Shown: positions 1 to 21,265, counted from the first letter of the stretch. The stretch is 64,000 nucleotides of DNA from an uncultured SAR116 cluster alpha proteobacterium (GCA_902528415.1 CABZSR010000007.1:1-64000), one strand, 5' to 3'. Numbers and translations: made by a program. Notes: generated from the sequence alone by a model not told the origin.

Positions 1-180
1 GAAGTTGGACCTGTAATTACCTCAGTTTGTGCATTTCCAGACAGGTCTGTTCCAACAATAGTAAATGAATAACCACTTTCATTACCACTTTCACTTGTTA
101 TTGATAACCTTTTACCTGTATTATCGGTAAATGATCCAGAATTAATTGAACTACCATTTAATGTTAATGCTGAAGAAGCC
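1..180 (-). repeat. FlgK-type repeat unit inside FliD (continues past window edge)
   Basis: SGTASSALTLNGSSINSGSFTDNTGKRLSITSESGNESGYSFTIVGTDLSGNAQTEVITGPTS matches the FlgK repeat pattern. Confidence 0.8.
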
Positions 181-1796
181 GTACCGGATTGTGAAGTAGA
201 AATAGAATCCGTGTCTGCTACTCCTGACATTTTTAAAAAACTATTAAGATTACTTCCAATGGCGTCAACTACAATTGAAGATGAAGCACCTATTGACCCT
301 GAAGTGATTGAATATGTCCCATTTGAGTGGTTTACAGCCACTGTTTTGCCTGCAGCAGTTAAAGTACTGTCTGTATTTAAAGCTGTTTGAATTGCTGTAG
401 CAAGGGCCGCTTCTGATGTGTAGTGGGCAGCTGGGATACTAACTGATCCAGATTGAGTTCCATCAACTGTGACTTGAATAGTATTGTTGGATGCAGTGAT
501 TTCAGGTGAAGTGTCATTAGTGTTAAGTCCTGTAAACGCGCCAGCAACATATGCAGTCATAACAAAGGCATATGATCCAGCTATAGGTGCTTTGACTGAT
601 CCACCACTTGCTGTTAATAAACTGGATGATGAAGAATACATCGAATTAAAAATAGCATCTAAAGATGTTGGATTATTTTTCAACTCGTTTTCAAGTACAG
701 TTGTATTTAAACTAAGAAGTCCATCTTTTTCAGTTCTTACACCAAGATTAGATAAATATACTCCATTCGCTCCAAATCCTGTTAATTGAGTAGATGTAAG
801 TGAATTCAATTGCTTTTGGATGCTTTTAATAACTGGATCATCAGATAAGTCTCCAGCCTCATCAGTAAGTGAGCCTCTAAAGGTTTTTTCATTAAGTAAA
901 CCTCTAGCATCATTAACAGCACTTATGAAAGATTGTAGATTTGTAGTGGCAGAGCTTGTATCTACAGAACCCATTAAGCTTGCTGGTGTGTCAGTCCCAT
1001 TAACCGTTGTTGATGAAAGTAAATTTACGTTGTAACCTGTAAATAAGTCTGTTATCGAATTTGATGATCTTGTCAATGAGATTCCATCAACAGTGAAAGA
1101 TGCATCTGTCCCAGCTAATTTTTGCTTTGAAGCATTCGTTGTTGTATTATCAATACTTGCTAAACCTGAACCAGACGGATTCTCAGTTGCTGTTATTCTT
1201 AAAGCATTTTCTTTTCCGTCTTGGGACTTTAATACAAGAGTAAAAGTACCATCACCTGCTCCTAGAACACTTGCCGTAACCCCATAATCTAATGCATTAA
1301 TTTTATCCTTCAAAGACTCTAATGTGTCAGTATTTAGAACAGTAAGTGATTTTGAACTTACTGTTGAACTCGCCACAAAACTACCTGAAGACCAATCCCC
1401 TCTTTCGAGTACAAGACTGCCCGCTCCAACAATGGATGTACTTGAAGTATAATCCTCAAAAGCTAATGTTTGTCCTTTTGCTAATGTTGAAATACTGATT
1501 GATGAATTTATAGCAACAGCCGTTGATGGATCAGATATAGTTGCACTTATTGCAGAACTTGTTGAACTTACATTTAATGAAGTATTTCCAGTAAGTGATT
1601 TAATAGAAGTGGAAAGTTTTGATAACGCACTTTTTATTTCACCAATTGCAGAAATAGCAGTGTTTTTTGTATCAATTTTAGATTGAATTTGGTTTTCTTT
1701 TGGTGCCTGTTCAGCTTCGACAAGGCTGTCAACAATTTGAGTTACATTTAGACCACTTCCACCTTGATTGAGAGTACTTAAATAATCTACAGTCAT
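1..1796 (-). CDS. fliD: Flagellar hook-associated protein 2 / filament cap FliD, 3' end truncated by window edge
   Basis: Manual reverse-strand translation from the ATG at 1796: MTVDYLSTLNQGGSGLNVTQIVDSLVEAEQAPKENQIQSKIDTKNTAISAIGEIKSALSKL..., a typical FliD N-terminus; frame open to window edge. Not in the ORF track because it runs off the edge. Confidence 0.88.
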   Translation of the reverse strand, partial: MTVDYLSTLNQGGSGLNVTQIVDSLVEAEQAPKENQIQSKIDTKNTAISAIGEIKSALSKLSTSIKSLTGNTSLNVSSTSSAISATISDPSTAVAINSSISISTLAKGQTLAFEDYTSSTSIVGAGSLVLERGDWSSGSFVASSTVSSKSLTVLNTDTLESLKDKINALDYGVTASVLGAGDGTFTLVLKSQDGKENALRITATENPSGSGLASIDNTTTNASKQKLAGTDASFTVDGISLTRSSNSITDLFTGYNVNLLSSTTVNGTDTPASLMGSVDTSSATTNLQSFISAVNDARGLLNEKTFRGSLTDEAGDLSDDPVIKSIQKQLNSLTSTQLTGFGANGVYLSNLGVRTEKDGLLSLNTTVLENELKNNPTSLDAIFNSMYSSSSSLLTASGGSVKAPIAGSYAFVMTAYVAGAFTGLNTNDTSPEITASNNTIQVTVDGTQSGSVSIPAAHYTSEAALATAIQTALNTDSTLTAAGKTVAVNHSNGTYSITSGSIGASSSIVVDAIGSNLNSFLKMSGVADTDSISTSQSGTASSALTLNGSSINSGSFTDNTGKRLSITSESGNESGYSFTIVGTDLSGNAQTEVITGPT

Positions 1797-4679: not shown

Positions 4680-5960
4680 TCATCTTAAATAATCAAATAA
4701 ATTTAATTGTGAGATTTTAACAAAAGACTGCTGACTAGCTTGCATTGATGTTAACATACTTTGTAAATCAGTTACTAAGGCCGCAAGGTCTGCATCTTTC
4801 AAATCACTAACGTCTTTTTCAACAGCCAATCTTCTTTGTGCTAAATGTTCAATTTGTCTATCAAGTGAATTATTTCTTGCCCCAATTTCACCTCTATTAT
4901 TAGCAATATGAACTTGAACAGAAGCTATATTATCAATTTGCTTTGACGGTAACTGGTTGTTGTCATATAATTTTTGAACACTACCTATTTTATTTCCAGT
5001 TCCGTCGGTGGGTTGAACATTGAAAAAAGAGCCAGGAGTTTTCTGCGCAGAATTGACACCGTACACAGACAAATTTTTGATTTCCATGGGTCCATTTACT
5101 GAGTCAGTTAATTTTATTGTCTTACCGTCATCATTAATGGAGGCTGTAACGCCAGTAGAACTTAAATTAATTTGTTTTACAAATTCTGAAGGATCTTCTC
5201 CGGTAATTTCCGTTGTAATGGTTGCAGTTCCTAAATTTCCTGTAAGATCAAAGGTCCAGGTTCCAGGATTTTTATTTTCAAACGTTAATTCGGCTACACC
5301 ATTAGACTTAACTGAGTTAACTCCACCTGAAGCAGTTCTAATAGAAAAACTGATATCTTCTAACATTTGGAAGATTGATACATTTATTCCATCTGATCCC
5401 TTAACAGCTTCAAACAATGTGCCACCATCAAGAGTTGTTTCCATTACTCGAGATTCTGAAATAGAAAGGGATGATATTCCCCTATCACCTTTGTAATTAA
5501 TTTTACCAGCTAGATCTTTTACGAAAGGCATAGTATTAGTTTTATAACCACTGAATAAGTAACTACCATTACTGTCTTTGGCATTTGCTACACTCAAAAT
5601 TTCTTCTTTCATTTCGTCAACTTCTAGAGCAATAGCGTCTCTATCAGAAGCACCAAGCACATCGCTAGATGCTTGTATAATTAATTCTTGAGTCCTTATC
5701 ATAATATTAGTTAAATTTTCTAAGTTTTTGTCTAATAGATTTAATCTATCTGAAGCAGAATTTACATTTCTTTCATACTGTTCAATTCTTTTTTTAACCA
5801 CATTTAATCCTGACAATTCAACTGAACCCACTGGATCATCTGAAGCACGTAAAATATTTTCTCCAGTAGCAATTTTATTTTGTAAATCTTGCAATTCTTC
5901 AGTTGTAGAGGAAAATTGTTTAAGTTGTTGTTGATTAAATAGTTTTGAACTTATTTGCAT
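4680..5960 (-). CDS. flgL: Flagellar hook-associated protein 3 FlgL
   Basis: 426 aa; MQISSKLFNQQQLKQFSSTTEELQDLQNKIATGENILRASDDPVGSVELSGL flagellin-like N-terminus and matching C-terminus. Confidence 0.9.
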   Translation of the reverse strand: MQISSKLFNQQQLKQFSSTTEELQDLQNKIATGENILRASDDPVGSVELSGLNVVKKRIEQYERNVNSASDRLNLLDKNLENLTNIMIRTQELIIQASSDVLGASDRDAIALEVDEMKEEILSVANAKDSNGSYLFSGYKTNTMPFVKDLAGKINYKGDRGISSLSISESRVMETTLDGGTLFEAVKGSDGINVSIFQMLEDISFSIRTASGGVNSVKSNGVAELTFENKNPGTWTFDLTGNLGTATITTEITGEDPSEFVKQINLSSTGVTASINDDGKTIKLTDSVNGPMEIKNLSVYGVNSAQKTPGSFFNVQPTDGTGNKIGSVQKLYDNNQLPSKQIDNIASVQVHIANNRGEIGARNNSLDRQIEHLAQRRLAVEKDVSDLKDADLAALVTDLQSMLTSMQASQQSFVKISQLNLFDYLR

Positions 5961-5977
5961 TTATTAGCCTATTATTT

Positions 5978-8900
5978 TTATACAACCTCAATAAGAGATT
6001 GAAACAATTCTTTAGCTGTTTGCAAAATACGTGCCGAAGCTTGGTAAGCTTGTTGAAATTCAAGTAAATGGGCAGCTTCTTCGTCTAAATTAACTCCAGC
6101 AAATTCGCTTTGACTTGCTTCTGCTGCTTCTAATATATTTGAAGCTGAATCAAGCGAAAGTTTACTAGCTTGTACATTTGAACCTATCTTAGAAACGGTT
6201 ATATTGAAGGTTTTTTGAAAATTTCCTCTATTTTCTCCAGTTTTATCCTCGCCCTGTAAACTTAAGATATTAAGAATATTTCTATTATCTCCTTTACCGT
6301 CCAAATTGGTTGAAAATTCAAAACTATTACTCAAAATAGGTTCTTCTGAAAATTGAAATTTAGAATTATTTACTTCAAAAACTCTGTTTACATCTAAAAT
6401 TCTAGATGCGATCGAATGACCAGATTTTTTATCAAAGATTTCTACTTTATTTTTGTTATTAGCATCAACCTTAATTGTTAATTCTGGATCAAAGTCACTC
6501 TTGACACTTTTATTTTCAGGAACCTTATCAAATTCAGCACTAATCTTTCTTGCACCTTTTCCCATTACTATGGTGATCAAGTCCTCTGGAGGCAGATCAC
6601 TTATATTTACTTTTTCAGCAACTGAGTTTTGAATAGAGTTATTAGGTATATCAATCTTTACAGGTTTACCAGAAAACGAAGTAATTTTTAATCCGTCATT
6701 ATCTACAGTTGCACGAATATCTTGTGTTTTAATTCCATAAAGTCGATTAGCGTTGGGACTGCCATCCATTTTAAAATTGACATCATCAATAGTATGACTA
6801 AGGGTTAGTCTTCCTACTTTTTGAGTTCCTACTTTAACAGTTGAGGCAGAAGCACTAGCAGGGGTTATAGACGTAATCTGAGAAAAAACTTTTTCACCTA
6901 CAACTTTTGCTCCTGCTGCTTGGGCTGTTATTACTTCAGTTTGTGTGTTCCCGAACTGGTCTAATCCAACTATAGTATATTTTTCTCCAAGATCATTACC
7001 TGCAGGTGTAATAGTAATAACTTGCGGATCTATAGTAACATGTGTAGCCTGGACCCCAATCTCTATAGTGCCAGCTGTATTGTTAGATGCTGAAATAGAT
7101 AAAACTTCACTGAAAGAAATACTACCTAACGCCGTTCCTCCGCTAACACCTGTAATAGTTTCCGTTCTGTAAACTCCTGAAGTGTCATATCCATTAACAA
7201 CAAAGGAATTACCTGTTTCATTTCCATTACAAAGAACTGTGATTTTTCCATTCAGTGCCTTTGAGCCATTTAAAACCCCGTCTAGAGTTAACGCACCTGC
7301 TAACGGTGACTTACTTATCATCATTCCGTCAACATCTGTGGTAGAAAGAGTACCATCAGTAATAATTGGAACACCTGCAGACAGATTGTTATTAAATAAG
7401 GAAACATCATCTGTTATGCCGGAAGACTCACTCCACGATAAGGATATGCCGGATGGAGGAGAACCGCTTAAGGCTGATCCCTCACTATTAAAAAAAACTG
7501 GCACATTACTATCATTGAATTTAATTGAAAAATTAGTTGTAACATAATTTTCTGTTACCTCAATTGAAATAGCTGGATCAGATGCAGTTGGTTGTACAAC
7601 AAAATTACCTACAAGAGACGCTTTAGCTTTCTTTAAACCAAATGACTCTGCATTCATTGTATTTGCTGTATTTGAAACTAATTCAAATTGCGCACCCTCA
7701 ACTGTTCCTTCAGCTGTTGCTATTAATTCAAAACCAGGGGCTGTTCCAATTTCTATATTTCCACTCGTGTTAATATTGGGAGTAATAGTAGTGATTGTCT
7801 TAAAAAGACCTAAAGATGTAACTGTATTGCCTTGCGTTGGACCAATAATAGTTTCTGTTTTACTTTGTCCATCGGTGTCAGTACCAACTATAGTGAATGT
7901 TTTGTCACTTTCATTACTTGTAGATGTTATTGACACTCTAGTTCCAGATCCAAAACCAGGTGTTGCTCCCACATATATGTCATTAGCATTATTATCAGTT
8001 GAAATTTGAGTAACAGTCTTAAAATATTTTGTTCCTGTCACACTATTATTGTTGATCCCAGTTATTGTTTCAGTCTGAGCATTTCCATCTATATCTGTTC
8101 CTGTAATTGTAAAAGTTGCAGAAGTATTATTAGTTGGACTAGAGATTGTAATTCTTGAATTCAAAGATGAAGAAGCTAAACTTGACAAGGCACCAGTAAT
8201 GTTAAAGTTGCTGTTATTTCCAACTGTTTGGTTAACTACTAATCCATCACTATCAACCACGGAATTTATTCCATTCATAGTCAAAGCATTAGAGGCTGTA
8301 CCAGACTGGGCTGTTGCAATTGAATTAGTAATATTTTCTGATGTCCCATTAAACCGAGCCTTTATTCTATTTTCCTCAGGTCCTTCAACTAATAATTCAC
8401 CTGAAGTCATATTTAGTCTAAAAATTTGACCTTCAAAACTTAAATCAACAGACTGGCCGTCTTTTGGTAATGAGTTAAGAACTATTCCTTTAAGTTGCGA
8501 TGTTGGCGTTTCTGATCTTAAGCTTGATAAAATAGCTGTAGAAATTTCTTTTTCGGTGTCTGCATTAAGAGCATTTGCGTCTATAGTAGTATTCCAATTT
8601 CCGTCAGCTGCTTTGGTGCCAATCCTAATACTACCATTATTTGTTCCAGAACTATTTATTGAGGTTACTGTTTTAAATATGTTAGTAGTTGTGACCACAC
8701 CTCCATTTGATCCTAATATAGTCTCACTTATAACTTTATTGTCCAAATCTGTACCACTGATGACAAAACTTGTGCCAGTAGTATCTTGTCTACTTTTAAT
8801 TTCTATTTGTGCGCCAAGATAATTTGAAGTTGATAAAACTCCATCCATTGTTAAAGCACCAGACGAAAATGTTGTTAATTCAACTAAACTGTCGTCGTCA

Positions 8901-11900
8901 TTGATATCATTTCTACCTATTGTTCCTATTTTTATATTTCCACTTGTAGTAGCAGACGATACTATAGATGTTATGGTTGTAAACTTTGTAGACCCAATTG
9001 CAGTATTAGATGAACCAACGCCAGTAATTTCTTCTGTTATAACTGTACCACTTGCGTTGGTACCTGTAACTGTAAATTTATTTCCAGTTTCAGTCGCTGA
9101 GCAATAAATTGTTACAACTGAGTTTAAGTCATTTGCGTCTTTTAGAGCACCATTTAGAGATATTGTTCCGGCTGCACCAGGATTATTTGAGGTGTATAAG
9201 CTATCATCGTCGTTTACAAATAATTTATAGTCTTTTTGATTAATATCTAAACCATATTTAGAAAGACCAACTACTGCTTTTTTACCGTCTGGTGCTCCTA
9301 AACTATTGTCTAGACTGTTAAAAACCTCAGGATTAATTGTAACTTTTTCGCCTGTTTTATTTCTGTCAACTTTAATGTATCCGTTAGTGAGTGAGTCTAA
9401 AGTTGCAGAATTGACTACCCCTGTATTAATTTGTGTAGAAAAACTCTCACTTGAAACGAATTTCAATTCACCCTTTATATTGGCCGATGTTTTGTTGTTA
9501 TTACTTACATCTATTAATAACTTAGAATTTAATTGTGAATTATTTTCACTTAATCTATCAAAATTTTCTCCAAATGTTTCAAGAAAAAAGTCGGAAGGAG
9601 CAGAAATATTTTTAAGGTTTACATCATATCCATCTTTGGAATCAATTATTATTTTTTTAGAGTCACCTGTGACATTTGCTATCAAACCTGTTTGAGATGA
9701 ATATTCATTAATACTTTTAGCCAAAGCAGATAAGTCACTTGCTGCAACACTCGCATTAATTGATACAGCATTACTATTCTTAGCTTTTAGATCAAAAGTA
9801 ATTGATCCACTTGTACCTTCATCCAATGGTCCTAGCATAACCTTAGTACTAGCGGATACATTTACACCTGTTCCTGCTAAATCAGTTTTGAGTTTATTAG
9901 CCGAATAATACGCGTTTGTTCCTACAGGTACATTTATAGTTTTCACAACATTATCACTATTAGTAATATTTAGAGAGTAGCCAATTGCTTCAGTTCCAAT
10001 TGAAATTTTTCCAGCTGAGTTACCATCAATACTAATACTTCTAACTTTACTGAAAATTTTGCTTCCTGTTACAGTTACTATATTGCCGCCGGTAATTGTT
10101 TCAGTTTGATAAAGTCCATCTAAATCATATCCAGTAACTGTAAAAGTCCTAGTTGATTCATCTTTTTCACAGGCAATTGAAATATGTGAATTTAACTCTT
10201 TAGAGTATATTTTTTCACCATCAAGCGTCAATGAACCACTGGTCACAGTTTTAGTTGTAAGCAAACCATCCATGTCCGTACTTTGTTCATTGTAACTTAA
10301 GTTTGAGCCAAAACTACTAACATAATCTCCACTAGCAGTTTTCCTTGATAAATTCATACCTCTATAATTATTATTTAAATAATCATTTCTATACTCAGCA
10401 GACTCTAAAAACCCATTCTCTTTTTTAATTAAAGAAGCTACCTCAGAGGCATCTAAAGTTGTGCCAGAAACATGTCTTCCGTCTCGGGTAAAGATTTGAA
10501 TCTTACTAGGTAACGCAGCCAAAGCAGAAATATTTGAAATTGAGGCTGAAAAAGAATTACCTTTAGAAAATATTGAAGCGTTTGAAATATCAGATTCTGA
10601 GGATGCTATTGTGAGATATCCATTAGCACCAGAGGCAAATAATCCATACTTTCTAAAATCATGTTGACTTTTCCCATCCAACATCAAACCTGAATTTAAT
10701 AAGTCTGCAAACTCTTCTACAGATTTTATTCCATCTCCAGGATCGGTAGCGGCTGAACTTAAATTTACTTCATTTCCATTTGCAAGAGTGATTTTAAATG
10801 ATGAAAAACCTTTGATATCGGCGTCTGAAATAGTAATCGTTCCAGACGATTGATTACCTATTGAAGATAAATTAATTGACTTTATTGACGGTTGTATAGT
10901 TGATATAGGTCCATCTTGCAAAAAAGATGTTGCTACTAAAGGATTATTACTTGAGGTAAAAACATCCTTTATTTGTGGAGGATGACCTAATTTTGGTTGT
11001 TGAATAGTACCAATTAAATTTAATTCAACTTCGCCTACATTAGCGGAGCTTTTGGAAATTAAATTTTTAGATGACGCAGCAAAATCTTTGGGATTTGTTA
11101 GATTAAATTGCATTGCACCAGATTTAGTCGTACTTGGAGATATTATAAAACCATCATTGTCTTCAGGCTCTCCTATAACTTCGATTTGATAACCATTAAA
11201 ATTAAGCAAATTTCCTCTTGTAAAAGAAACACCAACCGAATCTCTTATTTTCCACTCATTATTAGTATTATTGTAATTTACATATATTTTTTCTTGTAAG
11301 ATGTTGCTTGGATCACTTTCAACAATGTTGAAACTTAGAGAACTCTTATTATTGTAGTTAGCCTTTGGAGTCATTGAGTTAACTGAAAACATTGCTTTTC
11401 CAGTCTGTCCGTTAAGATTAATACCGGAAGTTTGAATATTATTTATTTCATTTGAAAATTGTTCAGCAAGACTACTTATTTCACTTTGGACCAGTCTAAC
11501 TAAACTATAAAATTGTGAAATTCCAGATAATATGCCTGAAGAGAATGTAGCAGTTGATTTTATTCCCTGTTTATTAACAATAATTGATATATTATTTTCG
11601 TCTGAAGCTGATGTAAGTATCGCAGCATTATTTCTTTTTAGAATATTTACTCCGTTTCCTGAATCACCTAATCTAATTTCAGCTGCTCCTGTTTCATCGA
11701 AATTTACAGTGAAATTAAGTATTTTAGAGAGGTCTTTTAACAATTTATCTCTAGCATCTAAAACATCATTAGAAGCATCTTTAATACCGCTCGTAGAGAT
11801 TAAACTGTTAACTTTAGATAGTTGATCTAAATTTAAATTTACTTCAGTTAATTTAATATCAACTTGTTTAAGAACACTTGAATTAAAGTTTTTCAGTTGA

Positions 11901-12358
11901 GTATCATAATTATTAAAAGATGAGGCCAATGCTTTTCCTGCTTCTAAAGCAACAGTGCGAGCAGCAATACTATCAGGGTTACTTGCAACGTCTTGTAGAG
12001 AATCAAAAAATCTTCCAATGAAAATACCTAAATCACTTCCTGAAGGTAACAACATATCTTCTAAATCGCTTAATTTTGAGACTAACTCATTTAGCATTTC
12101 ATAGTCTGATTGAGATGACCTGGTTTTATCGGACAAGTATGCATCAAATGATCTTTTAACTCTTGCAACTCTTACCCCTAGACCAGAATTATCTGACACA
12201 TTAGTTGGTCCTCCAGAGACGCCTGCAACTTCAGTAATATCTGCGCTTCTTTTATTATAACCTTCTGTATTAATATTAGCTATATTTTGACCGGTAACAG
12301 ATAAAGCTTGTCTATAGGCTTGTACCCCAGTTTTTCCGATTTCAAATAAAGAAGCCAT
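5978..12358 (-). CDS. flgK: Giant flagellar hook-associated protein 1 FlgK (2126 aa)
   Basis: N-term MASLFEIGKTGVQAYRQALSVTGQNIANINTEGYNKRSADITE and C-term AGVNLDEEAAHLLEFQQAYQASARILQTAKELFQSLIEVV are FlgK; long central repetitive insert. Confidence 0.93.
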   Translation of the reverse strand: MASLFEIGKTGVQAYRQALSVTGQNIANINTEGYNKRSADITEVAGVSGGPTNVSDNSGLGVRVARVKRSFDAYLSDKTRSSQSDYEMLNELVSKLSDLEDMLLPSGSDLGIFIGRFFDSLQDVASNPDSIAARTVALEAGKALASSFNNYDTQLKNFNSSVLKQVDIKLTEVNLNLDQLSKVNSLISTSGIKDASNDVLDARDKLLKDLSKILNFTVNFDETGAAEIRLGDSGNGVNILKRNNAAILTSASDENNISIIVNKQGIKSTATFSSGILSGISQFYSLVRLVQSEISSLAEQFSNEINNIQTSGINLNGQTGKAMFSVNSMTPKANYNNKSSLSFNIVESDPSNILQEKIYVNYNNTNNEWKIRDSVGVSFTRGNLLNFNGYQIEVIGEPEDNDGFIISPSTTKSGAMQFNLTNPKDFAASSKNLISKSSANVGEVELNLIGTIQQPKLGHPPQIKDVFTSSNNPLVATSFLQDGPISTIQPSIKSINLSSIGNQSSGTITISDADIKGFSSFKITLANGNEVNLSSAATDPGDGIKSVEEFADLLNSGLMLDGKSQHDFRKYGLFASGANGYLTIASSESDISNASIFSKGNSFSASISNISALAALPSKIQIFTRDGRHVSGTTLDASEVASLIKKENGFLESAEYRNDYLNNNYRGMNLSRKTASGDYVSSFGSNLSYNEQSTDMDGLLTTKTVTSGSLTLDGEKIYSKELNSHISIACEKDESTRTFTVTGYDLDGLYQTETITGGNIVTVTGSKIFSKVRSISIDGNSAGKISIGTEAIGYSLNITNSDNVVKTINVPVGTNAYYSANKLKTDLAGTGVNVSASTKVMLGPLDEGTSGSITFDLKAKNSNAVSINASVAASDLSALAKSINEYSSQTGLIANVTGDSKKIIIDSKDGYDVNLKNISAPSDFFLETFGENFDRLSENNSQLNSKLLIDVSNNNKTSANIKGELKFVSSESFSTQINTGVVNSATLDSLTNGYIKVDRNKTGEKVTINPEVFNSLDNSLGAPDGKKAVVGLSKYGLDINQKDYKLFVNDDDSLYTSNNPGAAGTISLNGALKDANDLNSVVTIYCSATETGNKFTVTGTNASGTVITEEITGVGSSNTAIGSTKFTTITSIVSSATTSGNIKIGTIGRNDINDDDSLVELTTFSSGALTMDGVLSTSNYLGAQIEIKSRQDTTGTSFVISGTDLDNKVISETILGSNGGVVTTTNIFKTVTSINSSGTNNGSIRIGTKAADGNWNTTIDANALNADTEKEISTAILSSLRSETPTSQLKGIVLNSLPKDGQSVDLSFEGQIFRLNMTSGELLVEGPEENRIKARFNGTSENITNSIATAQSGTASNALTMNGINSVVDSDGLVVNQTVGNNSNFNITGALSSLASSSLNSRITISSPTNNTSATFTITGTDIDGNAQTETITGINNNSVTGTKYFKTVTQISTDNNANDIYVGATPGFGSGTRVSITSTSNESDKTFTIVGTDTDGQSKTETIIGPTQGNTVTSLGLFKTITTITPNINTSGNIEIGTAPGFELIATAEGTVEGAQFELVSNTANTMNAESFGLKKAKASLVGNFVVQPTASDPAISIEVTENYVTTNFSIKFNDSNVPVFFNSEGSALSGSPPSGISLSWSESSGITDDVSLFNNNLSAGVPIITDGTLSTTDVDGMMISKSPLAGALTLDGVLNGSKALNGKITVLCNGNETGNSFVVNGYDTSGVYRTETITGVSGGTALGSISFSEVLSISASNNTAGTIEIGVQATHVTIDPQVITITPAGNDLGEKYTIVGLDQFGNTQTEVITAQAAGAKVVGEKVFSQITSITPASASASTVKVGTQKVGRLTLSHTIDDVNFKMDGSPNANRLYGIKTQDIRATVDNDGLKITSFSGKPVKIDIPNNSIQNSVAEKVNISDLPPEDLITIVMGKGARKISAEFDKVPENKSVKSDFDPELTIKVDANNKNKVEIFDKKSGHSIASRILDVNRVFEVNNSKFQFSEEPILSNSFEFSTNLDGKGDNRNILNILSLQGEDKTGENRGNFQKTFNITVSKIGSNVQASKLSLDSASNILEAAEASQSEFAGVNLDEEAAHLLEFQQAYQASARILQTAKELFQSLIEVV
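6806..10245 (-). repeat. At least seven diverged ~75-95 aa repeats within flgK
   Basis: Repeated pattern GxLTLDGxL...ITIxxxxNETGxxFTVTGTDxxGxxxTETITG...TGTxxFKTVTSI...AGxIxIGT; approximate copies at 9972-10245, 8905-9185, 8600-8872, 7950-8216, 7729-7945, 7037-7298, 6806-7034. Confidence 0.85.
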
Positions 12359-16144: not shown

Positions 16145-19100
16145 TTATGTCCTAATTTGAATGATTGCTTGAGTTAAGCTTGTATTAGTTTCAATTGTTT
16201 TTGCATTCGCCTGAAAGTTTCTCTGCGCTGTTATTAAGTTTACAAGTTCTTCGGTAATATCAACATTAGATCTTTCTAGTGAACCAGAGAGTATCGTTCC
16301 ATATCCATCAGCTCCTGCCTCTCCAACTGCGGCAACACCTGAGACCGAAGTTTCAACGTACGTTGCGTTACCAACTTGCTTGAGGCCATTCTGGTTATTA
16401 AAGTTTACCATTACAAGTCGTCCAAGTGCAATATTCAATCCGTTTGTATAGTTAGCACTAACCAATCCGTTAGCTGCTACATCCAAACCATCTAACTTAC
16501 CAACAGTTTGTCCATCTTGCGTAACTGTTCTAACATTAAAGTCAGAAGCAAACTGTGTTGAACCATCGAAATTTAAGTCTAAGTCAATGGAAAGAGCATT
16601 AGTACCAGCTGCAGCGTCTGCTGCAAAGTCACCTTGATATCCAACTTTTTGAATAGGACTTACTAAGTTACCTTGAGTATCAAATGTCAACTCTCCTGGT
16701 CTTATGAAAACTTTAGCAAAAGTACCATCAGTTGTTGGGGTCCAGGCATTATCTGGAGCAAGAGTCGTAGTTGTTCCAGCATCATTAACGTATAAAGATT
16801 GACCTGTATCTGATTTAGCTATTGTATTTGCCATGTTAACAAATGAAGGAGTAGTTCCAGTTACCAATTCGAGGTTGTCTAAACCCATACGTGCACTAGC
16901 TGAAACGAATATTTTACTTTTTAATCCAGTTGTGCCAGTAGTAAACGTAAACGAGTTACTTGTAGAGTTGTAAACAACAGTAACTCCATTTACTGTGTTA
17001 CCTGAAGTATCTTCCATTTGATTAATTCTTGATTGAAGAGCCGTTGCTAAAGAAGTTCCATTATAAACTCCTTCAGGAACTTGAATAGCAGCTGTAATAT
17101 CGTTAACGTTTACAACAAAAATTGTCTCTTCAGCAGCATCGGATAAGAAAAAATCCTCTGATAAATCCTCGTTAGATGTTCTACCATTTAAAACTGCTGG
17201 TTCTGACTTTAAACCTTTACCCGAGGTATCTGCTGTTACAGTCGTAATTGCATTAGTAGCGTTTATTCCTAAGAGAGCACTTGTACCCCCTGTTCCAGCA
17301 TTAGATGCAGTAGCAACACCGTCAACTATTGCTAATCTTCCTATTTCAATATTAGATGACGCTTGTCCACCGTCTCCAACACCAACAGCTGAATTTGCTG
17401 GTATATTTTCACCAGTTGTACCACTGGCAATGCTAAATTTTCTTGTAAGATTATTATAAGATACTTCAACTCCAAAAGCCTGTTGAGTGTCAGCAGCTAT
17501 CTGGTCACCTGTAAACAAGACTGATTCTGCTTTTAATAAAGCACCACCACCAATGTTTGATGAGGCTTTATTAGTTTGTGTTTTTAAACCAATTGCATTT
17601 GCACTGTTACCTTCTCCAGGTCCGTATGCTGAAAATGAGAACATTTTACTGGCCGTTGAAGTACCTATTTTAGAGGGAATACCTTGCAGAGTAAAATTTT
17701 GGGATGAAAAATCATATGCAATTCTTAAGGCAGGATCATTTTCATCTACCCAATCATCTGAACTTGATACATCTTGTGTAATGACTGAATCTATCTCATG
17801 TTGAAGAGCTGTAGTTCCACCAGCACCTCTTATTAAACCAGTAAAACTAGTTGCTGTTTTACCAGTATATTCAATGAGTTCATTACCAATTCTAATAAAA
17901 CCGTTATCTTCAAAATCAGCAGTTGAGTCAACTGTAAGAGTAGTAGCAGTTGTTGTTAGTTGCGCGCTTACGTCTGTACTCCTCGAGGCTAATCCAAGAT
18001 TTTCTACACTATCAAATAAACTTAGAGTTGTTGTTGCTGCTACAGATTTGCTTTCACTGTTATCAACACCTCTGGTTATACCAGTTAAAGTTGTTCCGGT
18101 TTTACCAGTATAAGTAATTATTTCATCACCTAATTTAAATTTCCCAGGTGCGTCTGCACTAGCAGCTGTAAATCCGGCGGTCGTTCCCACAGTTAACGTT
18201 TCTGAGTCAGGTGGTAAAAAAGTAATTGATGTATTATCAGGTATAATTGCTGTTGTGGCAGCGCTTATTGTTATAACTGCATTGTTAATAGCTGTAACTG
18301 TCGTACCTACTGTTACACCAGCGACTTCGACAATGTCACCGACTGATATATTAGTGTTTGCATCAACCGTTATATTGGTTGCTCCCTCTGCAACTTCACC
18401 GTTAATAAGTACTTGAGCCCCTAAACCGTCTTCATCAACAAAACTTAATTCACCTCCAACAATATCCGCAGTAGCTGCATTTGATAAAGTAATAGTTGTA
18501 CCTGTGATCCCAGTTACGGTTGTATTAGCAGGTATATTAGTTCCAAAAACAGCATCTCCAACTGCAATATTGGTAGCATCTAATACAGCTAGAGTTGTTG
18601 CTGTACCACCTGTTACGTCAACAGTTCCAGTGGTATGACTACTAGCTAAAAAAGTAACTTTTGTGCCTGCAGCTGTTGCTGAATTAGCATTTAATACGGC
18701 TGTAGGATTTGCACTTAGTTGTAGTTGTCTGTCATTTGTAATTGCAATAACTCTAGTACCTGCTGTTATTCCAGCTCCTACAACCCTGTCCCCTATCCTA
18801 ATACCTTTTGTTCCACCGTCAACTGTAAGAAGATCAGAGTTTGTAGCACCAGCCGCAGTTCTCTCATATATAACGTTGGTACCAGCTGTGCCTGCTGTTC
18901 TTCCGGCAGTAGCTGGTGTAGCCGTAAGTGTAGTACTTCTTAAAATATCAGTAAAGTCACTCATAATTCCGTCAGTGAAAGTAACTAATTTGACAGTTGC
19001 ATCGTCTTGGGCAGTAGCTTTTGTAGTGCCATTGACTTCCCTGGTAACTCCCGTAAATGATGTAGCGGTAGTACCAGTATAATTCACTTGTTCAGTACCT

Positions 19101-21265
19101 ATCAACAAAGTACCACTAGCAGGGAAACCAGCAGTGGTGTCTACTGTAAGTGTTGTTACAGTATCATTTATAGCACCATTTAAAAGTGTATTTGGCTGTT
19201 TAACATCTTTGTTAAGATAAGAATGTTTATTTAACTCCTTTAAAACTATTCTATTGCTTCCAAAATGTTCTGTTTGTCCTGAGAAGACATCCGTACCACC
19301 TTCAAAATAAGCAGATATATCTTTAGATTCTGTATGTAGAACTTTGATTTTTGTGTCTGTAATATTTATTGCAGTTGTTGAGTCTGATTTTAAATTTAAA
19401 AACTCATTACCATCAGCATCTGTACCAGCACTAGATACAGAAAATTTTGCACCGTTATATTTTGCATCATTTACCGTAGAGGCTGTCGTGTCAAATTCAC
19501 CAGCTAAGAACACCTCAGTTGGAAAACTGGTAGAGCTTATTGTATTAGCTGTGTCATTTATATAAACTTTCAAAGTTCCACTGGCATCTTGAACCATAGT
19601 ATTTCCGCTTACTGCTGTAACATCCAGAGCCTTATCAAAAACTTTTAGCGTAGGAGAGGCATTGTAATAACTATGTAATAAAAATTTTTCTTCGTTTGTT
19701 ACGTTATTTTCGTCTGATAAGTCTGCTGTAGGATGTTTATAATTAAAACTTAATACTTCAGTTTCTTTAATTGCACCATCAAGTGCTTTCCCATTCACTC
19801 TGCTAAATAATGAAGAATTAACACCGTAGGTAGAAGAGTTGTTAGTATTACCGTCAGAGGAAACTGCTGCCCTATTTAAAGCATCATTTATCCTTAATTG
19901 AGCGTGGGCTAAAAATTCTTCTCTTGTAAAATTTGGTGATGCAACATTTTCTATTCCATTTGTAATAGAAAAAAGGTCTTCTGTTACAAAACTGTCTTTC
20001 ATTAAATCAACATTAATAGCTGCCAAAGTTTGAATTTCGTCGTTATTGTCAAGCTGATTAAATTGTATTGAAAAACTGCCATCAGTTACAGGATCAATGG
20101 CTAATTTAGAATCATCTGACAAACCTGCATTTATAGCTCTTTGAACCTCAGACGCAAGAGAGGTTGCAGTGTAAGTCCCAGGTCTAATATCAATACTCTT
20201 AAAACTCGCGCTTCCTGTTGTATCATCGACTCGAACTGTTAAGAAATCCTTACCCCAGTAAGTTGATTTGTTAAGAGTTGGGTTAGCTTCATAAGTGGTA
20301 TAATATTGTAGGGGGTCTGTTACAACTGTTATAGAAGGCGCTGTTGCAGTGAAAGCAGCATCCTCTAAAACTGTTGACTCGACTGTCGCGGCTTTCGAAA
20401 CCGTCTTGTTAGATAAATCATCTAGAAAAAATAGAGGTTGAGTTTGGGCAACAGAAATAATTTGTGGTTTTTCATTAATTGGGATTATTTGACCAAAACG
20501 ATCAACAACTAACGTTTGACCAGTTGGAGAAATAGCTTCAGTTAGAGATGGTTGAACCTCTCTTCCGTCCACTATAAATTTTGTTTGATATTTGTGAGTT
20601 GCTTGATCACCTGAAGCTGCTTGTGTTTTTATAAAAAAGGCTGTCGCAATAACCGGGTTACCTAAATTATCAAAAATTGTAACAGAAGTAGAAGAATTAA
20701 ATGTAGCTGGATTTTTTGGATCAAAATCAGCAGCAGATTCAAAAACAGTTGATGACGCTGGTAAATTTACCGCTAATTCTAAGTTATCTGTCTTTTTAGC
20801 CTCTCCTGCCTCTAACTCTAATTTAAGAGGTTTAGCATCAACAATTTCACCACCTTGAACAGATCCATCATCAGAAACAGGTAACGCGAGTACAAACTGA
20901 CCTGCAGAATCTACAACAAATCTGTCATTATTTACTGAAAAAGAACCGTTTCTGGTATAAACGGTTTGATTAGTAGTTAAAGATGGCTTCAAAGCAAAAA
21001 AACCTTGTCCTGAAATAGCCATATCCAAAGCATTAAGTGAGGAAGAAACGTTACCTTGAGTAAATTGCTGTTTAATTCCCTTCAAAATAGTTCCAGAACC
21101 AATCGATGAAGAGCTGTTCTGTAATGGAGAAGTCGCAAAGATATCGCCAAATTCAGCTTTACTTCTTTTATAACCTGTAGTCGCAACGTTAGCGATGTTA
21201 TTTGACGTTGCTGATATATCTGCTTGTGATCCGTTTAATCCTGTAAGAGCGGTATAAAATGACAT
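16145..21265 (-). CDS. flgE: Giant flagellar hook protein FlgE (1706 aa)
   Basis: N-term MSFYTALTGLNGSQADISATSNNIANVATTGYKRSKAEFGDIF and C-term GSLERSNVDITEELVNLITAQRNFQANAKTIETNTSLTQAIIQIRT are FlgE; very long central insert. Confidence 0.94.
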   Translation of the reverse strand: MSFYTALTGLNGSQADISATSNNIANVATTGYKRSKAEFGDIFATSPLQNSSSSIGSGTILKGIKQQFTQGNVSSSLNALDMAISGQGFFALKPSLTTNQTVYTRNGSFSVNNDRFVVDSAGQFVLALPVSDDGSVQGGEIVDAKPLKLELEAGEAKKTDNLELAVNLPASSTVFESAADFDPKNPATFNSSTSVTIFDNLGNPVIATAFFIKTQAASGDQATHKYQTKFIVDGREVQPSLTEAISPTGQTLVVDRFGQIIPINEKPQIISVAQTQPLFFLDDLSNKTVSKAATVESTVLEDAAFTATAPSITVVTDPLQYYTTYEANPTLNKSTYWGKDFLTVRVDDTTGSASFKSIDIRPGTYTATSLASEVQRAINAGLSDDSKLAIDPVTDGSFSIQFNQLDNNDEIQTLAAINVDLMKDSFVTEDLFSITNGIENVASPNFTREEFLAHAQLRINDALNRAAVSSDGNTNNSSTYGVNSSLFSRVNGKALDGAIKETEVLSFNYKHPTADLSDENNVTNEEKFLLHSYYNASPTLKVFDKALDVTAVSGNTMVQDASGTLKVYINDTANTISSTSFPTEVFLAGEFDTTASTVNDAKYNGAKFSVSSAGTDADGNEFLNLKSDSTTAINITDTKIKVLHTESKDISAYFEGGTDVFSGQTEHFGSNRIVLKELNKHSYLNKDVKQPNTLLNGAINDTVTTLTVDTTAGFPASGTLLIGTEQVNYTGTTATSFTGVTREVNGTTKATAQDDATVKLVTFTDGIMSDFTDILRSTTLTATPATAGRTAGTAGTNVIYERTAAGATNSDLLTVDGGTKGIRIGDRVVGAGITAGTRVIAITNDRQLQLSANPTAVLNANSATAAGTKVTFLASSHTTGTVDVTGGTATTLAVLDATNIAVGDAVFGTNIPANTTVTGITGTTITLSNAATADIVGGELSFVDEDGLGAQVLINGEVAEGATNITVDANTNISVGDIVEVAGVTVGTTVTAINNAVITISAATTAIIPDNTSITFLPPDSETLTVGTTAGFTAASADAPGKFKLGDEIITYTGKTGTTLTGITRGVDNSESKSVAATTTLSLFDSVENLGLASRSTDVSAQLTTTATTLTVDSTADFEDNGFIRIGNELIEYTGKTATSFTGLIRGAGGTTALQHEIDSVITQDVSSSDDWVDENDPALRIAYDFSSQNFTLQGIPSKIGTSTASKMFSFSAYGPGEGNSANAIGLKTQTNKASSNIGGGALLKAESVLFTGDQIAADTQQAFGVEVSYNNLTRKFSIASGTTGENIPANSAVGVGDGGQASSNIEIGRLAIVDGVATASNAGTGGTSALLGINATNAITTVTADTSGKGLKSEPAVLNGRTSNEDLSEDFFLSDAAEETIFVVNVNDITAAIQVPEGVYNGTSLATALQSRINQMEDTSGNTVNGVTVVYNSTSNSFTFTTGTTGLKSKIFVSASARMGLDNLELVTGTTPSFVNMANTIAKSDTGQSLYVNDAGTTTTLAPDNAWTPTTDGTFAKVFIRPGELTFDTQGNLVSPIQKVGYQGDFAADAAAGTNALSIDLDLNFDGSTQFASDFNVRTVTQDGQTVGKLDGLDVAANGLVSANYTNGLNIALGRLVMVNFNNQNGLKQVGNATYVETSVSGVAAVGEAGADGYGTILSGSLERSNVDITEELVNLITAQRNFQANAKTIETNTSLTQAIIQIRT
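17760..19195 (-). repeat. Two interleaved internal repeat types within flgE
   Basis: Type A (3 copies): TTLTVDTTAGF..GxxxIGxExxxYTGxTxTxxTGxTRGVxGTT. Type B (about 3 copies): ISVGDxVxGxxIxAGTTVTAITxxxITLSxxATA. Confidence 0.8.

Follow-up and report, generated by a model that had tools for sequence, protein, structure and literature searches.

The window, the whole 64,000-nucleotide stretch of DNA analysed here, belongs to the genome of a SAR116 bacterium, a single-cell or metagenome assembly of 1.72 Mb in 58 contigs with 73% completeness. The minus strand of the window from position 1 to ~22 kb is occupied by a flagellar gene cluster (Table 1). The positions and sequences of the ORFs place flgK in a rod/hook operon, with flgE, rod-type and flgH/flgI-like ORFs upstream and flgL downstream; of these neighbours, flgE and flgL were compared with Pfam. 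Nearby ORFs on the strand of flgK have sequences that we take to resemble FlgF, FlgG, FlgH and FlgI. FlgK contains FlgK_D1 (PF22638, 1.6e-42), Flg_bb_rod (PF00460, 2.2e-5) and Flg_bbr_C (PF06429, 2.6e-10), all above the cut-off, while FliD contains FliD_N (PF02465, 1.2e-13) and FliD_C (PF07195, 1.8e-21; partial, contig end). FliD is incomplete because the contig starts at window base 1.

Table 1. Flagellar genes and repeated modules in the window.
Feature	Residues (aa)	Window position	Strand	Basis or remark
fliD, filament cap protein	 	1..1796	-	ORF + Pfam; cut by contig start
FliD unit	536-598	3..191	-	FlgK-only profile; cut by contig start
FlgL	 	4680-5960	-	Downstream of flgK; Pfam-tested
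flgK, hook-filament junction protein, seven units	2126 in total	5978..12358	-	ORF + Pfam
FlgK unit 7	1771-1850	6809..7048	-	Profile + alignment
FlgK unit 6	1684-1775	7034..7309	-	Profile + alignment
FlgK unit 5	1471-1544	7727..7948	-	Shorter; without the N-terminal LTLDG strand
FlgK unit 4	1380-1471	7946..8221	-	Module type of this slot varies by species; modelled by AlphaFold2
FlgK unit 3	1163-1254	8597..8872	-	Profile + alignment
FlgK unit 2	1060-1151	8906..9181	-	Profile + alignment
FlgK unit 1	703-795	9974..10252	-	Profile + alignment
flgE, hook protein, three copies of second phage-type module	1706 in total	16145..21265	-	ORF + Pfam
FlgE-type module copy 3	1103-1174	17744..17959	-	Profile
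FlgE-type module copy 2	1017-1088	18002..18217	-	Profile
FlgE-type module copy 1	699-770	18956..19171	-	Profile

FlgK carries seven copies of a unit of ~75-95 residues, hereinafter designated the GTD unit. The copies lie between aa 703 and 1850 (window 6809-10252), make up about 29% of the protein, and agree with the seven-copy array that a sequence-only reading had placed at 6806-10245. They are rich in T, S, G and N. The same reading had assigned a copy to FliD, and a profile built from the FlgK copies alone indeed matches FliD aa 536-598 with E=2.3e-10 (Z=1000); it has no match in FlgE. In the alignment of the FlgK and FliD units, G41, E51 and I53 are invariant. The GC content of the FlgK units is 33-40%, compared with 32% for the window, and a marked foreign signal is absent.

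The module proved more widespread than first read. A search of the whole genome with all eight units found two further units in one protein on another contig (G000:C23). Because this protein contains the Flagellin_N, Flagellin_C and Flagellin_IN domains, it is the filament flagellin. SEG-filtered BLASTP likewise connects FliC with FlgK (E=2.8e-16) and with FliD (8.7e-7). In FlgK, FliD and several flagellins, the units are flanked by the conserved flagellar terminal domains. Separate from the GTD units, a Flagellin_IN-like segment of FlgK (aa ~813-923, window 9590-9920) is common to flagellin, with 30% identity and an unfiltered E of 8e-17.

Homologues of the unit are found in phages. A search of viral sequences with a degenerate DNA motif encoding GTDxxGxxxTE..[IVL]TG gave at least 120 stretches, 80 of which were retained as loci. 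The FlgK-only profile matches all 80, in most cases along the entire unit, at E-values between 8e-10 and 2.6e-23, compared with a best E of 0.25 for reversed and shuffled viral ORFs. Of the two outcomes that would have refuted the sequence-only reading, a FliD segment not significantly related to the FlgK units and viral matches no better than noise, neither occurred. Because the fetching motif was modelled on the unit, this count speaks for homology beyond the motif and not for prevalence. The alignment of FlgK with phage units spans the full unit, with G41, E51 and G85 fixed around the core D-x-x-G-x-x-x-T-E-T-[IV]-T-G. The phage forms are divergent. A tblastn search of annotated phages gave no match for single units, the viral protein or the FlgE module, probably because of low-complexity filtering, as profiles do find matches in these phages.

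The typical phage protein carrying the unit has ~205 residues. In every one of the 54 loci with a recognisable major capsid gene, that gene and the unit gene share a strand, and the unit gene is the downstream one, at a distance of 0.7-2.3 kb; the reference for these loci, the major capsid protein of L115, matches the major head protein phrog_371. A minority of the phage units are in tail-type proteins. The likeness to phage virion or tail proteins proposed in the sequence-only reading is thus borne out as far as virion-gene proteins are concerned, but not for the tail in the main: the phage module is one of the head operon more than of the tail.

Relatives of the capsid gene in cultured phages led to pelagiphage HTVC023P, whose gp42 carries the unit (5e-9 with the FlgK-only profile, 5.5e-16 with a broader profile). 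At the same slot, DSL-LC04 encodes a protein of 103 aa that consists of the C-terminal half, the anchor, and lacks the unit; the anchor is therefore the conserved part and the unit an optional addition. None of the flagellar proteins examined matches the anchor domain (best E 0.58), which indicates that the flagellum has the module and not the phage protein. In HMO-2011-like contigs (L053 and L081), with a capsid protein 73% identical to that of HMO-2011, the unit is inside the gp44 homologue. HMO-2011 itself, the one cultured SAR116 phage scanned, has no unit in the 50 of 55 kb covered and a gp44 without it, and was rejected as the direct donor.

The AlphaFold2 model of FlgK unit 4 is a seven-strand all-beta structure (pLDDT 76.6), and the phage protein is predicted to be a confident all-beta structure (pLDDT 92.5). 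Superposed on predicted proteins of uncultured Caudovirales, the FlgK-unit model deviates by 1.3-1.7 Å over ~71 residues, at a sequence identity of 29-40%. FlgK unit 4 has no significant fold match in the PDB, and comparison of the unit with PHROG, Pfam and PDB sequences assigned no family. Fold searches of the PDB with the FlgK unit and the viral protein gave no convincing match. Specifically, a hit to 9occ (E=6e-4) was rejected (TM 0.16, rmsd 18.8), and epsilon15 chain 3j40_H is a weak hit (E=0.16). The RTX-adhesin repeat 6xi1 in the PDB (E=0.018) was not accepted, with E>3 for each repeat. Among Ig-like sequence families, the best match is Big_15 (E=0.018, 1 of 28 members), which is not significant. 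The description of the units as Ig-like is therefore unsupported, because no solved structure matches convincingly, and the Pfam, PDB sequence and fold searches returned no Ig-domain match.

In cellular genomes the unit is largely confined to one genus. Among named bacteria, those of the SAR116 cluster are nearest in the repeat region; AG-337-N21, for example, is 84% identical. Of the incomplete genomes compared, 33 of the 37 in the source genus have units. Other families of the order are represented by 24 genomes, all of them unit-less and 13 of them with FlgK; sister families have large FlgK proteins without units. The four unit-less genomes of the genus have no FlgK match either. Flagellin was looked for in two of these (G030 and G035) and not found, and a genome without units but with FlgE modules (G029) is, because of those modules, probably merely incomplete. 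Within the genus, copy number varies from seven in FlgK to one to three in cap and filament proteins, and the FliD orthologues carry a complete unit, or two, at the position of the window's FliD unit.

A class-wide search found units in 3 of 386 other alphaproteobacteria. Two of the matches, in otherwise unrelated hosts (L198 in G156, L199 in G201), are prophages, because the unit gene lies directly beyond a major capsid gene; the third is a secreted sialidase-like protein. The phylum-wide search added one match in 398 genomes, a giant ORF of another alphaproteobacterium. This ORF (G714; L340, L331) encodes 9496 aa with two units and secreted-adhesin-like repeats. Within the source genus, a 4220-aa RTX-type protein (L167:3626-16285, G017) has one GTD unit, which groups with FlgK slot 4.

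A second phage-type module is present in the hook protein. FlgE contains three copies of TLTVDSTAGFP..G.LLIGxExVxYTG.., which matches the virion structural protein phrog_4406 (E=9e-15). The three-copy profile matches 80 of 80 viral loci that had been fetched by a motif for this module, and at least six phage contigs carry the module in the gene that follows the anchor gene. Outside the genus it is absent from the same 24 genomes of the order and from the 386 of the class. Two relatives (G003 and G014) have it also in FlgK and flagellin. A conserved non-flagellar protein of ~450-470 aa in G003 (L351:3257-4651) and same-genus relatives has a weak match to the FlgE-type module (E about 1e-9 to 1e-5); G035, where neither FlgK nor flagellin was found, has this protein too.

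In the unit tree, FlgK slots are orthologous across the species of the genus, so the array predates the spread of the genus, but the module type in slot 4 varies from species to species. Insertions in FliD occur at two sites, ~aa 150 in G031 and ~aa 536-740 elsewhere. In FliDs with two units, the first one groups with FlgK slot 4 and the unit of the RTX-type protein (SH-aLRT 98), whereas the window's FliD unit belongs to a separate FliD lineage, and a single FliD clade is not rejected by the AU test (p=0.28). Simple nesting of FliD copies within FlgK copies was rejected as a general pattern, holding for one FliD lineage only. Movement between FlgK and FliD, as claimed for the window, is thus partly supported, by the grouping with slot 4 in relatives but not by the separate placement of the window's own FliD unit.

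Mobility is seen more directly in the two FliD insertion sites and in a block common to FlgK and FliC. In G003 and G014, a 690-bp block with three FlgE-type modules lies directly before the GTD units in FlgK and in a flagellin. In G003 the FlgK and flagellin blocks agree at 89%, and two runs of 60-bp windows within them reach 95-100%; the flanks, near 70%, are unrelated. Outside the block, segments of the flagellar genes of G003 and G014 are 77-85% identical. This mosaic suggests recombination between flagellar genes. With single-cell data, an assembly chimera is also a possible source of the G003 block.

Taken together, we consider it probable that a ~90-residue all-beta module of phage virions was captured by the flagellum of one SAR116 genus, multiplied there, and was reshuffled among flagellar genes. 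Capture from phages is inferred because phages hold divergent forms of the module at a fixed place, while cells outside the genus almost never have it. In this mechanism, the module would belong to virion proteins of marine tailed phages, and would have been inserted into FlgK, FliD and flagellin between the conserved ends that form the core, at the place of outward-facing D2/D3-type domains. Tandem multiplication in FlgK would have occurred before the genus diversified, and later recombination may have reshuffled the units among flagellar genes. The unit trees (~90 residues, few columns) fix neither the root nor the number of captures, because resolution is poor and a single flagellar clade withstands the AU test (p=0.48); the module may have been captured from phages more than once, a possibility that this test neither supports nor contradicts.

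The assembled flagellum would then display phage-type modules on junction, cap and filament, and the second phage-type module on the hook. By analogy with D2/D3 domains, the units are probably exposed outward in the filament. Their most likely function would be that of exposed, replaceable outer domains that change the flagellar surface, whether for sticking to particles or polysaccharides or as a shield against grazers and flagellum-targeting phages. A bolder version, in which two modules of phage origin coat the flagellum from hook to cap and keep recombining among its genes, and perhaps with phages that infect the cell, to produce a changeable surface that binds the targets of the virion or blocks flagellum-seeking phages, is tentative and somewhat doubtful.

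Of the other explanations, the one that survives best is that the module arose in bacterial surface proteins, either giant RTX-type adhesins or flagella, and that phages took it from their hosts. A cellular adhesin source is possible because a handful of giant secreted proteins and a single sialidase-like protein also contain the unit, and the RTX-type protein of the genus, whose unit groups with FlgK slot 4, and the giant ORF of another alphaproteobacterium fit such a source. We nevertheless regard a host origin as unlikely, given that cells outside the genus are nearly unit-free, that divergent phage forms occupy a fixed head-operon position, and that the phage copy is tied to an anchor of its own.

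Less likely still is that flagellar outer domains were simply duplicated in tandem, and that their phage likeness is only deep and irrelevant to current biology. The slot-by-slot orthology of most FlgK units, the large unit-less FlgK proteins of sister families, and the extreme diversity of flagellin hypervariable regions (PMC7018530) would all fit duplication, but it does not explain why module types swap at slot 4, why FliD has two insertion sites, or why the FlgE-type module is equally genus-restricted and moves between FlgK and FliC. Convergence of low-complexity beta repeats, by which T/G/S-rich secreted proteins come to look alike and the phage match is compositional, can practically be dismissed: the T/S/G/N-rich composition and the tblastn null, itself perhaps due to filtering, are outweighed by the full-length alignment with its fixed residues and core, by E-values to 1e-23 where decoys fail, by the SEG-filtered link between FliC and FlgK, and by the overlay of the predicted structures.

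Capture from phages, if correct, bears on the origin of new flagellin hypervariable regions, which are among the most diverse protein segments. In this case the relatives are identifiable: they form a module family that abundant marine phages encode at a fixed place beside the capsid gene, and that also appears in filament, junction and cap proteins of a genus abundant in the ocean. Two module families without a Pfam entry are thereby named, and a concrete test becomes possible of whether phages supply flagellar outer domains and whether these domains bind polysaccharides, particles or other phages. In the literature searched, which was not exhaustive, no description of phage modules in flagella was found.

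On the phage side, the protein with the GTD unit resembles capsid decoration proteins in gene position, its gene adjoining the major capsid gene. Fraser and colleagues reportedly described Ig-like accessory domains on phage structural proteins in 2006-2007, and T5 pb10 is said to be an example. Like those domains, the GTD unit is a small, optional beta module on virion proteins that is variably present among related phages; unlike them, it has no detectable Ig-like match in Pfam or the PDB, and its anchor protein is unannotated and adjoins the major capsid gene. HTVC023P-type gp42 (QGZ17671.1) combines unit and anchor, and PHROG 28102 (~100 aa) matches the anchor part, the one not found in the SAR116 flagellar proteins examined; neither gp42 nor phrog_28102 has an assigned function.

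On the flagellar side, Pfam Flagellin_IN (PF07196), which occurs in flagellin and, as its name indicates, in hook-associated proteins, is a precedent for domain sharing among axial proteins; it is a different segment, and matches the SAR116 flagellin outside the GTD units. Giant flagellins have D2/D3 outer domains in the hypervariable region (PMC6248924), and flagellinolysins have a protease inserted in flagellin (PMC5595980). The SAR116 units are similarly extra domains between conserved termini, presumably exposed on the filament, and the insertion of foreign domains thus has precedent; no description of a phage source was found in the two reviews consulted. Unlike in these systems, in SAR116 one module extends to FlgK and FliD and a second is in FlgE, and each of the two has counterparts in phage virion-gene proteins.
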